Position numbers and translations under genes: made by a program
Assembly: GCF_000691505.1 (NCBI RefSeq)
Contig: NZ_JMIP02000021.1
Location: 1-64,000, forward strand
DNA from: Halostagnicola sp. A56
GTDB taxonomy: Archaea; Halobacteriota; Halobacteria; Halobacteriales; Natrialbaceae
Direction of reading: 5' to 3'
Length of the DNA stretch: 64,000 nucleotides
Notes under the pieces: generated by a model
Told to the model about the DNA's origin: nothing
What the model saw: only the letters and a program-made list of their open reading frames with translations
The model's database searches: none
In this document: in pieces, positions 49,732-53,755 of the stretch
How positions within the stretch are numbered: the stretch's first letter is position 1
Layout of the letters: the number at the start of each line of letters is the position of its first letter

Positions 49732-49953
49732 ATGTCCGACGAAAACGAACCCGACGAGAACGCAGACGACAGCGAGGAGAAGTCGTTCCGCGAGCGCGTC
49801 GAGGAAATCCGCGAAAAGCGCGCCGAAGAAGGCGAAGGCGAGGGAGAACCGCCGGAAAGCCCCTTCGGCGGCGGCGGTGGCGGTCCGGGCGGTCCCGGCG
49901 GCATGGGCGGCGGCGGCAACCCGTTTGCCATCGTATATTTCGGACGGTATTAA
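49732..49953 (+). CDS. acidic protein with Gly/Pro-rich C-terminus
   Basis: A 73-residue protein: an acidic N-terminal tail, a charged helix SFRERVEEIREKRAEEGEGE (about 15-34) and a glycine/proline-rich run GGGGGGPGGPGGMGGGG. The last residues NPFAIVYFGRY differ from the Met/Gly-rich ending I would expect for this kind of haloarchaeal protein, so the C-terminus may be altered by a rearrangement near 49930, next to the secreted-protein locus. Low certainty; ATG 49732 chosen from the MSDENEPDEN start. Confidence 0.55.
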   Translation: MSDENEPDENADDSEEKSFRERVEEIREKRAEEGEGEGEPPESPFGGGGGGPGGPGGMGGGGNPFAIVYFGRY

Positions 49954-50034: not shown

Positions 50035-50571
50035 TTACCCAAGACCAAGATCGAACAGGTCGTTGAGGAGCGTGATAATTTCGGTGTTCACGCTATCATC
50101 TTGGTTGACATCGGCGTTGCCGCCGTCGCCACCGTCGCCGGCTTCAGCGTCACCGTCGACGTCGACATCAGCGGAGGAGTCGGCGTATCCTGCTTGCTCC
50201 TGCTCGTTCTCTTGCTCAACTTCCTGGAACTGAGCCGTGTTGGAGCCTTGTCCGTCGTTGTTGTCGTGATATTTGTTGTGCTTCGGGTTCTCACCAGGAC
50301 TCGAGCTGGTCGCTACCTGGTTGTTGGTGTTCGTTGCATCCTGTTCCTGGTTAACGACCGCTGGGCCAGTTTCGACGTCTACGTCGTGTCCCTCGTGGGT
50401 CGCATCGCCGCCGTCGCCGCCGCTGCCGCCGATACCGACACCGATATCACCGGTATCTCCTGGAAGGTTCCCGATGCCATCGTTCTGTGCCGCTGCCGTC
50501 CCGGCGAACCCCATGAATGCGAGGCTGCCGAGGAGTGCGAATACCATCAGCGCTGTGAATGTGCGTTTCAT
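50035..50571 (-). CDS. secreted Gln/Asn-rich protein, curlin-repeat-like partner
   Basis: A 178-residue protein with a Sec signal peptide (KRTFTALMVFALLGSLAFMGFAGTAAAQ, cleavage after AQ). The mature part is Gly/Asp-rich with motifs VVNQEQDATNTNNQ (about 77-90) and QFQEVEQENEQEQAG (about 118-132), which match the Q-x-Q-x2-x-Q-x-N-x3-Q spacing of repeats in the divergent gene at 51306. Aspartate-rich tail DVDVDGDAEAGDGGDGGNAD. It is probably exported and could nucleate or cap polymers of the larger protein. ATG 50571 gives the signal peptide; the ORF upstream to 50712 is not haloarchaeal in composition. Confidence 0.65.
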   Translation of the reverse strand: MKRTFTALMVFALLGSLAFMGFAGTAAAQNDGIGNLPGDTGDIGVGIGGSGGDGGDATHEGHDVDVETGPAVVNQEQDATNTNNQVATSSSPGENPKHNKYHDNNDGQGSNTAQFQEVEQENEQEQAGYADSSADVDVDGDAEAGDGGDGGNADVNQDDSVNTEIITLLNDLFDLGLG

Positions 50572-51305
50572 GTTTGCTGTGTTGTATCGTCCGGGCATAC
50601 ACGCGCGGACCGCCGAAACCGGGTCGTCACCAGCGCACCGCGTTCCTGGGTTCGTTACCAGTCTCGAGTGCACGGTTCCTCGCGGGTTGTCGACCGATCC
50701 GAGCGATGCCACGGCGCGTTGCCCGGTTGATCACGACCATCAGCGCCCGTATTAACCCGAATTACAGTTCCAATGGTCTATTTTCGATTGTGTCGCCGTT
50801 CGATCACCGTTACATATCCCTGACGAGTTGTCAGTCACTGTATCTCCAATTTATCGCCGGAACGGCACGCCTACCGATAATTTAATCGGCGTCTCGAGAT
50901 CGTATGCAGCGGCTATACCCGCAGTAGGACCGGGTAATTTCGCATACACACGAATCGAACTTGCTGTGTGTTCGTTTCGCCAGAGTGTCTATCGACATGG
51001 AAAGTCCCCGTTTCGTGGATATACGCACTTACGTGCTTGAATTACGGAACATCTCAGCCGCGACCTAGAGTGTTGGTAGCACTCACATCGCATGGGAACC
51101 GGCCGGTCCGAACGGTTTCCGCGAGTAGTGACAGGCTTCGAGTTCGTCTCGAAATTCGAACGTCCGACTCGAGGCGGTAACGGCCTTGTTCTGCCTGACA
51201 ACCTACAGATAACAAAGACACTATTCGGAAAAAGATGGTTCGCACCGCGAAGATGCAGTAAAAAAGACCCTCACAGGGCATTTGAAACGATACCAAAAAT
51301 ACACG
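50572..51305. other. 734-bp divergent intergenic region of the secreted repeat proteins
   Basis: No gene supported. The region is AT-richer than its surroundings and must contain both promoters. ATTAACCCGAATTAC (about 50752-50766) and TAATTTAATCGG (about 50878-50889) are AT-rich candidates; the plus-strand gene has no clear TATA box within 40 bp of ATG 51306. Its length suggests extended regulatory DNA, as is typical of surface-structure operons. Confidence 0.45.
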
Positions 51306-52853
51306 ATGATATCACGATCACAACTCACGACAGTTCTCGTCGTCGCGATGCTCGCGCTCTCGATGACGGGCGCGGCCCTTCCCGCGACCGCACAGGACGA
51401 TTCCGGCGGGGATGGTACCGGCGAAGACGAGAGAACGCTCCACACGCTCCAGGATGGAGAGGACCTCTACTTCGTCTTCGGTGCGGACCTCGGCGACCAG
51501 TCAGTCGAAGAGTACGTAGACGAACACCTCGAGAGCGAGGAAAGCGACGCGTCCGGCACCTCGAGTCCGGCCGCCGATATCGTCCAGTATCAGGACGTGA
51601 ACCAGACCAACGTCGACGTACAGGAGGGCGCAGCCTCCATCTCGATCGACGGCGGTGACGCGACGGCCATCCAGGACTCCAGACAGACGAACGAGAACAC
51701 GCAGGAAGGAGAAGCCATCTCCGAGAACCAGCACCTGCAGGACCAACACGTCGAATTCCGGGATGTCGGTGACGTCTACTTCCTCTTCGGTGAGGAGAAC
51801 AACCAGCGCTTCGACGGTTGGGCGGTCGCTGGTGAGAAAGGCGGCGACCACGACGAGAAACCCGACAAAGAGATAAAATACTCGGAAGCGACCGTCACGC
51901 AGCTACAGCAGGTCGATCAGGCGAACGTCAACGAACAGAGCGTCGCCTTCTCGATCGCCGAAAACGGCAGCGACGCGCTCGCGATTCAGGACAGTTCTCA
52001 GCACAACGTCAACTCCCAAAGCGCGGTTGCAAACGCCGAAAACGTGAATCCGAGTAGCGCCGAAGGTGGTAGTCAAGTCGCTACCTCGGAGCTGGATCAA
52101 GCCCAGGAGAGCATGCAGACCAACATCAATCATCAGGGCTTCGCCGTCGCGATCGCCATCGGTAACGAGTCGACGGCAACCTCGATCCAGACGACCGAGC
52201 AGTCGAACATCAACGAGCAGATCGGGAGCGCCTACTCGGCGTCCGTCCTCGAGGCAACCGAAGGGATGAACGTCGCGTCGGCGAGCACCAACGGCGGCTC
52301 CGACGTCGTCAAGAGCACCAGTGACAAACAGAAGACTCCCCACGACAAGAAAAAGAAAGGAAGCGAATCCACCGACGCGAGCGTCAGCCAGTACCAAGAC
52401 GTGAGCCAGCTCAACCTCAACCAGCAGAGCGCAGCCGTCGCGATCGCGCTCAACGGAAGCGAGGCAACCGCGATTCAGATCTCCCACCAGGAGAACCACA
52501 ACGCGCAGATCGGCATTTCGCAAGCGCTTCCGGCGAACGCGGCCGGATCGTCACCGGGCGTACTCTACAGCGAAGAGACGACTGTCTCGCTGAAGGGTCA
52601 AAACTCCTCCGAGAACCCGATCATGACGATCGACTCGGACGTCGGCGGCCAGCAGAAACAAGACGTCGCCTATCAGCCCGACGCGGTCGTCGATCAGTAC
52701 CAGTCGGTCTTCCAGGAGAACCTGAACGAACAGCGGGCTGCGTACGCAGTCGCCGAGGACGACGGTGAAGCGACGGCCTCGCAGGTGAGTATGCAGTCCC
52801 AGGAGAACGTGCAGTTCGGCTCCGCGATCGCGCCGTCTGCGATCCCCACCTAA
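51306..52853 (+). CDS. large secreted protein with five curlin-like Gln/Asn repeats (possible functional amyloid)
   Basis: A 515-residue secreted protein: Sec signal peptide 1-30 ending ALPATAQ. Five repeats of about 44 residues at 93-136, 197-240, 263-307, 360-403 and 462-506 follow one pattern: Q-x-Q-x3-Q-x-N-x-N-x-Q, then x2-A-x2-I/V-A-x2-G-x2-A-T-A-I-Q-x-S-x-Q-x-N-x-N-x-Q-x-G. The second half mirrors the first, so each unit is two strand-turn-strand halves, as in curlin repeats of CsgA/CsgB. Unrelated spacers join them. Two segments share the motif D-x-Y-F-x-F-G (about 53-60 and 156-162). No cell-wall anchor. Highly acidic composition is moderate. Confidence 0.7.
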   Translation: MISRSQLTTVLVVAMLALSMTGAALPATAQDDSGGDGTGEDERTLHTLQDGEDLYFVFGADLGDQSVEEYVDEHLESEESDASGTSSPAADIVQYQDVNQTNVDVQEGAASISIDGGDATAIQDSRQTNENTQEGEAISENQHLQDQHVEFRDVGDVYFLFGEENNQRFDGWAVAGEKGGDHDEKPDKEIKYSEATVTQLQQVDQANVNEQSVAFSIAENGSDALAIQDSSQHNVNSQSAVANAENVNPSSAEGGSQVATSELDQAQESMQTNINHQGFAVAIAIGNESTATSIQTTEQSNINEQIGSAYSASVLEATEGMNVASASTNGGSDVVKSTSDKQKTPHDKKKKGSESTDASVSQYQDVSQLNLNQQSAAVAIALNGSEATAIQISHQENHNAQIGISQALPANAAGSSPGVLYSEETTVSLKGQNSSENPIMTIDSDVGGQQKQDVAYQPDAVVDQYQSVFQENLNEQRAAYAVAEDDGEATASQVSMQSQENVQFGSAIAPSAIPT

Positions 52854-52996: not shown

Positions 52997-53755
52997 TTAT
53001 TCTTCGTCGTCGCTGGTCGCCGATTCGTCGGTTTCGCGATGTTCGGCTAGTGCCTCGTCGATGCGCAACTCCCCCGCGGCGACGCGTTCGGCCAGCGCAT
53101 CGTCGATCGCGCGGTTCGTTTCGCTGCGCTCGCGCGAGCGGTCTTTGATCGCCTGTAACTCGCCGGCGGTGGGCTCGATCTCCCGACGCTCGACGGGCTC
53201 GCCCTCGAGTCTCGCGATATTCGCGGCCGCGAGGAGGTCGCCGGCCCCGCGAGCGCCCGTTCCCAGGTACGGCGTCGTTCCCGTTTCGTCGACGAGTTCG
53301 ACGCGAACGCCCTCGAGTTGGTTGACGAGCTTTGCGCTCTGGAGCCGGGAGCCGTCGCCGATCCGAACCAGCGGGTCGGCGGCTTCGGCCGCTTCGCGGG
53401 TGATGACATCGACGGCGTCGGCGATCGGAACCTGAAACGCGGCGACGATTATCTCCCCCGCGAGAACGGCGATACCCGGCTTTCGGCCGGGATCGACGCC
53501 GATGATCGTTCGACCGCTCTCGCCCTGAAGTGCGGCGAGGGCCTGTTCGACGGCGCGTCGCGACTCGTTCGGTGCCGCGACGATCGTGGGAACGCCCTCG
53601 AACGCGTCTGCGTTGTCTTCGTCTGTGATGACGACGCCGGTCTGCTCGGGGAGGTCGTCGTCGGGCTCGATCGTCGTAAACGTCGCTCTGCGATCGCGAA
53701 GCTCGTTGACGACGCCGTGGTAGACTTCGAAGTCGGTCGTTGCGACGACGATCAC
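52997..53755 (-). CDS. RNase H/RuvC-fold predicted nuclease-like protein
   Basis: A 252-residue protein. The core motif RTIIGVDPGRKPGIAVLAG (about 82-100) is an RNase H-fold first strand with the Asp-Pro-Gly arrangement of RuvC-like proteins. The N-terminal part (MIVVATTDFEVYHGVVNEL ... GVVITDEDNADAF) is a separate alpha/beta domain. AAEAADPLVRIGDGSRLQ and VDETGTTPYLGTGARGAGDLLAAANIARLEG give two more conserved blocks. The C-terminal ~50 residues are an acidic helix. It is divergent from radB, which fits a recombination/repair role, but this is only an inference. Confidence 0.7.
   Translation of the reverse strand: MIVVATTDFEVYHGVVNELRDRRATFTTIEPDDDLPEQTGVVITDEDNADAFEGVPTIVAAPNESRRAVEQALAALQGESGRTIIGVDPGRKPGIAVLAGEIIVAAFQVPIADAVDVITREAAEAADPLVRIGDGSRLQSAKLVNQLEGVRVELVDETGTTPYLGTGARGAGDLLAAANIARLEGEPVERREIEPTAGELQAIKDRSRERSETNRAIDDALAERVAAGELRIDEALAEHRETDESATSDDEE

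Follow-up and report, generated by a model that had tools for sequence, protein, structure and literature searches.

We analysed a 64,000-nucleotide stretch of DNA from Halostagnicola sp. A56 (the window; contig C14 of a 3.18-Mb assembly, with the genome about 84% complete), in which two divergent genes encode a large and a small putatively secreted protein carrying ladders of Gln and Asn. The results suggested that these ladder proteins most probably make up a new family of building blocks that act outside the cell and are amyloid-like, for which we infer fibre formation, and that there is about an even chance that the pair constitutes a two-component system of such blocks. An earlier note on this DNA, made from the sequence without database searches, had described two open reading frames (ORFs) sharing a 734-bp divergent gap, and this layout was recovered with the gap at 50572-51305. 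The features are as follows (positions in the window, strand, description; rows refer to alignment rows).

51306..52853, + strand: large five-repeat protein P0001, predicted to be secreted; 515 aa, ATG at 51306, stop ending at 52853
51306..51392, + strand: predicted signal peptide, Sec-type, residues ~1-29; assigned by eye, residues 7-18 modelled as a helix where the model has low confidence
51462..51482, + strand: first D-x-Y-F-x-F-G element, residues 53-59; Y55, F58 and G59 invariant in 20 rows
51573..51731, + strand: repeat 1, residues 90-142; core of 39 residues in 47/47 rows
51771..51791, + strand: second D-x-Y-F-x-F-G element, residues 156-162; V157 and G162 invariant in 20 rows, aromatic residues variable
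51885..52046, + strand: repeat 2, residues 194-247; core of 39 residues in 47/47 rows
52086..52247, + strand: repeat 3, residues 261-314; core of 40 residues in 47/47 rows
52374..52529, + strand: repeat 4, residues 357-408; core of 39 residues in 47/47 rows
52680..52838, + strand: repeat 5, residues 459-511; core of 39 residues in 44/47 rows
50572..51305, no strand: divergent intergenic region, 734 bp; conservation within the genus strongest at both ends
50035..50571, - strand: small divergent protein P0002, predicted to be secreted; 178 aa, ATG at 50571, stop ending at 50035; one degenerate repeat
50317..50349, - strand: first ladder half of the small protein, residues 75-85 (QEQDATNTNNQ), read from the translation
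50194..50232, - strand: second ladder half of the small protein, residues 114-126 (QFQEVEQENEQEQ), read from the translation

Repeat architecture of the large protein

The large protein was found to have the signal-peptide-like start and the five repeats that the earlier note had described, the former recognized by eye and the latter by a repeat hidden Markov model (HMM). The HMM that gave the above coordinates included the window's own repeats and scored 60-73 bits per repeat. With the window and L038 (the only Halostagnicola record) left out of the HMM, the large protein still scored 291.8 bits, vs 7.5 bits for the highest-scoring single domain in 200 shuffled versions of it. Each repeat consists of two Q-x3-Q-x-N-x-N-x-Q halves spaced 27 residues apart (28 in repeat 3), the last ladder half of repeat 5 being degenerate in the window, and the ladder residues proposed to be buried (Q, N, N, Q) are palindromic. 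The spacing of Gln and Asn along the protein, at lags 2, 4, 6 and 27, was matched by none of 1000 shuffles, and the string Q-x-N-x-N/S-x-Q occurs in eight copies vs 0.08 expected from shuffles. Thus, the two-half Gln/Asn ladder stood, whereas the length of about 44 residues given by the earlier note did not: the core, measured as the distance between the first and the last ladder Gln, is 39-40 residues in an alignment of 47 rows (the window and 46 loci). In the same way, the conservation claimed for the D-x-Y-F-x-F-G elements held for the first element and failed for the aromatics of the second.

Analysis of the 47-row alignment revealed an alternating pattern of conservation. Between the outermost ladder residues, the mean entropy over the five repeats was 0-0.5 bits where Gln, Asn or Ala stands; the rest of that face, made up of Val, turn residues and the position flanked by the two Gln of the second ladder, had 0.6-1.1 bits, and the intervening residues had about 1.2-2.3 bits. 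The alternation spans 50 positions and shifts phase once, behind the first ladder. The curli-like ladder that had been proposed from the window alone was borne out. The four linkers measure 47-55 (nearly fixed), 12-77, 39-82 and 40-71 residues in order. Five repeats were counted in 47/48 proteins and six in the remaining one, using an HMM built from the counted proteins themselves, which include the identical L043 and L044. In a test of 235 repeats, from which one short repeat was dropped, the closest relative of a repeat was the same position in another protein for 234/234 repeats, and still for 175/234 once relatives were restricted to <60% identity. The same-position nearest relatives and the fixed repeat number point to an old architecture with a set role for each repeat, rather than to a tandem array that expanded recently. 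Glycosylation sequons between the ladders were frequent in repeats 2-4 (31, 25 and 34 of 47) and less so in repeats 1 and 5 (13 and 5 of 47); this signal was set aside, as the total of 5.49 vs 5.65 expected showed no enrichment.

The within-genus ratio of nonsynonymous to synonymous substitution rates (dN/dS) was 0.09-0.18 in the large gene, compared with 0.19-0.43 in the small one (6 pairs each). The large gene is under purifying selection, and from the dN/dS values both are real genes, of which the small one is less constrained. Spurious ORFs in GC-rich DNA were ruled out by these values together with conservation across genera. An in-frame TTG lies at 51282, ahead of the large-gene ATG. Divergent gaps of about 520-740 bp were found at many other loci, and a conserved AAGACCCTCAC-like element lies about 42 bp ahead of the large gene, being present in 9/48 upstream stretches.

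The small partner, probable export and distribution

The earlier note had described a second secreted protein with a shorter version of the motif, a claim that was supported in part: a secretion-type start was recognized by eye and some relatives carry a clear repeat, whereas the motif in the window's protein is weak. Small proteins in other genera ranged from those with one clear repeat (48 bits in L042) to those scoring near zero, and the window's small protein contains no copy of the strict Q-x-N-x-N-x-Q string or of Q-x-N-x-N/S-x-Q. By one rule applied alike to all loci, which takes in the signal pattern, the charge and the content of Gln and Asn, 33/47 named loci have a divergent small secreted neighbour upstream; on the upstream strand, 48 ORFs within 199 kb passed this rule, vs 2 ORFs in 492 kb of other sequence, both strands counted. 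Two looser rules taken together raised the count to 35/47, with the candidate at L051 lying 3.8 kb away, and tandem copies of the small gene reached three per locus. The 12 loci without a small neighbour include three with little upstream sequence (2.0 kb at L058, 0.5 kb at L067 and 1.4 kb at L078). At some loci another secreted neighbour gene was seen, the conservation of which is local only.

Judged by sequence pattern, 8/48 large proteins have a Tat-like (twin-arginine translocation) start, namely L073, L075-L078, L080, L083 and L084, from Haladaptatus, Halegenticoccus, Saliphagus and some Natronococcus and Natrinema, and 4/48 have a PGF-CTERM-like anchor tail. One of 20 members scanned with Pfam matched PF18204 (PGF-CTERM) at E 2e-4, which is the same protein as L058. 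These patterns make export to the cell surface or the medium likely.

The same observations bear on a different explanation, in which the large protein would be a non-polymerising, monomeric or oligomeric beta-solenoid surface protein or adhesin, the repeats stacking within one molecule to space a binding end or form part of the envelope, with the small protein as its partner or competitor. Five repeats in 47 of the 48 proteins with fixed positional identities would suit such a defined molecule, as would the anchor-like tails and the Tat-like starts, and SufB/SufD and ice-binding proteins appeared among the weak structural matches described below. However, FapC with its fixed repeat number (3 in 94.2%; PMC12392863) and CsgA with its preferred numbers (PMC10192328) both polymerise; moreover, 44/48 members have no anchor-like tail, and a one-repeat partner is hard to account for in a plain adhesin. 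We regard this explanation as possible, if rather doubtful.

The large protein was found in 30/37 genomes of its family and in 0/24 other genomes of the order. The repeat profile matched 84/391 genomes of the class, of which 79 belong to the same family, and 15/392 genomes of the phylum, every one in the same family. A scan of 84,980 species with two peptide patterns returned 59 stretches, 47 of them encoding a relative and all haloarchaeal by record title; these relatives come mostly from genera that we take to belong to Natrialbaceae, plus Haladaptatus and Halegenticoccus. Nine plasmid records matched; seven bear the annotation hypothetical protein and two that of a PGF-CTERM sorting domain-containing protein. 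In Natronorubrum bangense (L043/L044), the chromosome and a plasmid both encode an identical 501-residue protein, and the neighbours of the two copies are placed alike.

As for the neighbourhood, a gene without a Pfam match (52997-53755 in the window) lies downstream in 24/47 loci, RadB (Pfam Rad51) lies downstream in 23/47 and LarC (Pfam Ni_insertion) upstream in 26/47. A RuvC-like label tried for the gene at 52997-53755 was not borne out. Pfam-named neighbours were RadB-like, CbiX and DUF2797, with LarC-like and CDC48 genes also at L038; LarC and CDC48 were not found near the window's pair, where CbiX and a DUF2797 gene stand instead. Directly left of the small gene, positions 49800-49953 (+ strand) encode a Gly/Pro-rich tail ending in GGMGGGGNPFAIVYFGRY.

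Comparison with curlin, Fap and other systems

The ladder family resembles curli in its Gln/Asn ladder, its five repeats (as in E. coli CsgA), its apparent major and minor subunits and its long divergent intergenic region (754 bp between csgD and csgB in E. coli vs 734 bp here). On the other side, it has inter-repeat linkers and a core of 39-40 residues vs a curlin repeat of 23 +/- 5 residues (PMC10192328), and it lacks the curlin kernel, CsgG and detectable homology. The curlin repeat family PF07012 matched 0/20 members, and nothing in the organism's own genome at E up to 10. In a comparison by hhalign, the ladder repeat profile and the E. coli curlin repeats shared one aligned column, and the ladder HMM scored CsgA at 0.5 bits and CsgB at -2.2 bits. 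The kernel N-x-psi-x-psi-x-Q occurs 0 times in the large and small proteins, 22 times in the archaeal curlin L120 and 5 times in CsgA. PF03783 (CsgG) had no match in the assembled, about 84% complete genome, in agreement with the earlier observation that no CsgG lay nearby. Hence, a sequence kinship with curlin was not supported by the Pfam, genome-wide PF07012, profile-profile and kernel results alike, and the suggestion that this is a separate family, not a set of transferred csg genes, was upheld. A diverged curlin acquired from bacteria, for which the ladder, the five repeats, the two paired subunits and the presence of true curlin-repeat proteins in the same archaeal family could be cited, is on these negative results highly improbable.

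These true curlins were revealed by searching PF07012 against 391 haloarchaeal genomes: 18 of these had a match at E up to 0.1, and four, all within one genus of the window's family, probably Haloterrigena, had one above the family cut-off. Haloferax volcanii showed a match to PF07012 in a control, under the cut-off. The first of the four is as follows.

L120:1300-2037, - strand: true curlin-repeat protein, PF07012 above cut-off; also in L121, L122 and L123

The four proteins (L120-L123) have a signal-like start and tandem 19-residue repeats of the type NDADVDQRNDAGVFQDGKN, and tblastn matched the haloarchaeal curlins to bacterial curlins. In genome G031, the archaeal curlin lies at C1:1329 kb, far from the ladder genes at 438 kb and 2232 kb, and it scored below zero against the ladder HMM. 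Haloarchaea thus hold, as judged from their sequences, two distinct ladder-type families, of which the window's is the non-curlin one.

Searches of Pfam, NCBIfam and PDB sequences with the large and small proteins returned no credible relative; the NCBIfam matches were far under the cut-offs (PFK_mixed at E 0.02 and WGxxGxxG_fam at E 1 for the large protein, MAP_0585_fam at E 1.4e-4 and PhrA_Strep at E 0.13 for the small one). The earlier note had held a clear match to a known non-amyloid family against its own proposal, and none significant was found.

The other point of comparison is the FapC/FapB functional amyloid of Pseudomonas. FapC has three imperfect repeats of fixed length with variable linkers and conserved Asn/Gln, the repeat number being 3 in 94.2%, and each imperfect repeat forms one cross-beta layer held by conserved Asn/Gln and joined by loops (PMC12392863). 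The ladder family shares the fixed repeat number and length, the variable linkers (three of four here), the conserved Asn/Gln, the position-specific repeats and the arrangement of two related, putatively secreted subunits, and FapC was its top yet non-significant structural match. It differs in having five repeats vs three, another motif, a one-repeat small partner and genes that stand beside housekeeping neighbours in an archaeon without an outer membrane. A pattern derived from the published FapC motif matched 0/48 ladder proteins, and PDB sequence searches at E up to 10 with the protein, with the family profile and with the repeat profile brought up no FapC chain. By the tests made, the ladder protein belongs to neither the curli nor the Fap family, and if the inference holds it works like an imperfect-repeat amyloid subunit. 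The sheath proteins of methanogens (MspA of Methanosaeta/Methanothrix and the Methanospirillum sheath protein), compared by partial published description only, are likewise archaeal surface proteins reported to be amyloid or amyloid-like; they differ in lineage and in forming a tubular sheath.

AlphaFold2 modelling of the large protein with 47 sequences gave a mean predicted local distance difference test score (pLDDT) of 59.8 and a predicted template modelling score of 0.55. The repeats were modelled as beta; averaged in blocks of ten residues, their pLDDT was 60-88 and mostly >70, and the linkers mostly fell at <50. Thus, the check proposed in the earlier note yielded beta-rich repeats and disordered linkers, not a globular fold without a beta ladder, at middling confidence and with the stacking not proven by the models. 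The best model of repeats 2-3 had a mean pLDDT of 71.2, with four other models at 34-41, and because it shows long hairpin-like strands, a beta-solenoid is not established for the repeats. At E up to 10, Foldseek of the full model returned three PDB matches, headed by two FapC amyloid structures (E 2.2 and 6.6). With the repeats 2-3 model against 350,542 chains, FapC again ranked first and second (E 0.052 and 0.056), followed by SufB/SufD and ice-binding proteins and, lower, HET-s amyloid and bactofilin; a viral structure library gave 26 matches at E up to 10, none significant. None of these PDB matches is significant, and the ranking of FapC, whose layers are Greek-key cross-beta, is a pointer only. 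The hairpin-like strands, the ice-binding proteins in the list and the conservation of one face with the other variable would also fit a flat beta-sheet of repeated units for binding to regular surfaces (polysaccharide, mineral or salt crystal, for instance), the Gln/Asn/Ala face being the binding face and not a buried core. The ice-binding matches are, however, non-significant, and no carbohydrate- or crystal-binding family was matched, so that we consider such a sheet unlikely.

Proposed assembly and its meaning

The reading that we prefer is that the ladder proteins build amyloid-like extracellular structures. In it, the stacking of layers, polymerisation and the part given to the small protein are put forward as proposals. 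Both proteins would leave the cell by ordinary secretion, through a Sec-like start here and a Tat-like start in some relatives, in a step that would cross the cytoplasmic membrane only; a pore such as CsgG or FapF would be unneeded, because the archaeon has no outer membrane. By analogy with FapC, each repeat of the large protein may form one beta layer, in which the conserved face (Gln, Asn, Ala, Val and Gly at alternate residues) would be buried, forming hydrogen-bonded Gln/Asn ladders, and the variable face would be turned to the solvent. The five layers of a molecule would stack with the linkers looping out, and molecules may in turn line up in end-to-end stacks, giving fibres or a matrix, with the small one-repeat protein as a minor subunit, perhaps a nucleator or a cap.

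Several observations weigh against this proposal. Tat exports folded proteins, which fits poorly with assembly outside the cell from an unfolded chain, and no small partner was detected for 7/8 relatives whose start is Tat-like, one of these loci having just 1.4 kb of upstream sequence. The tie of the window's small protein to the repeat is only marginal (7.9 bits overall and 9.5 for the best domain against the repeat HMM, the best of 200 shuffles reaching 7.0 and 6.2). Covariation within the repeat gave no strand register and no signal for hairpin vs arch. The repeats 2-3 models disagree with one another (mean pLDDT 34-71) and have long, hairpin-like strands, and the Foldseek matches to FapC are non-significant, with TM-scores <0.2 and a root mean square deviation of about 24-30 Å, obtained without a control fold of an unrelated repeat protein. 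Beta-solenoid domains also occur in proteins that do not form fibres (PMC10192328), and no experiment on any family member was found.

Among the literature matches listed, as far as titles and the starts of abstracts go, neither the ladder family nor amyloid in these genera was described. A curli survey of 2012 mentions one unnamed archaeal protein with curli-like repeats (PMC3521004), which may, at a guess, be an archaeal curlin, or else a member of the ladder family. Biofilms of Haloferax volcanii take amyloid dyes, as shown by a 2014 study that also named one tentative candidate gene (PMC4180959). The ladder genes provide a concrete, conserved and unnamed pair for the amyloid question in another haloarchaeal family. 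It is plausible, though somewhat short of an even chance, that they represent a third, independently evolved imperfect-repeat functional amyloid beside curli and Fap, the first to be defined by genes in haloarchaea, with five stacked layers of 39-40 residues, a palindromic Q-N-N-Q ladder, a fast-evolving one-repeat partner and assembly at high salt without an outer-membrane pore. If fibres form, the stacked imperfect-repeat design with Asn/Gln ladders would have been reached once more, independently of curli and Fap, and the pair would show how such a design works at high salt without an outer membrane.

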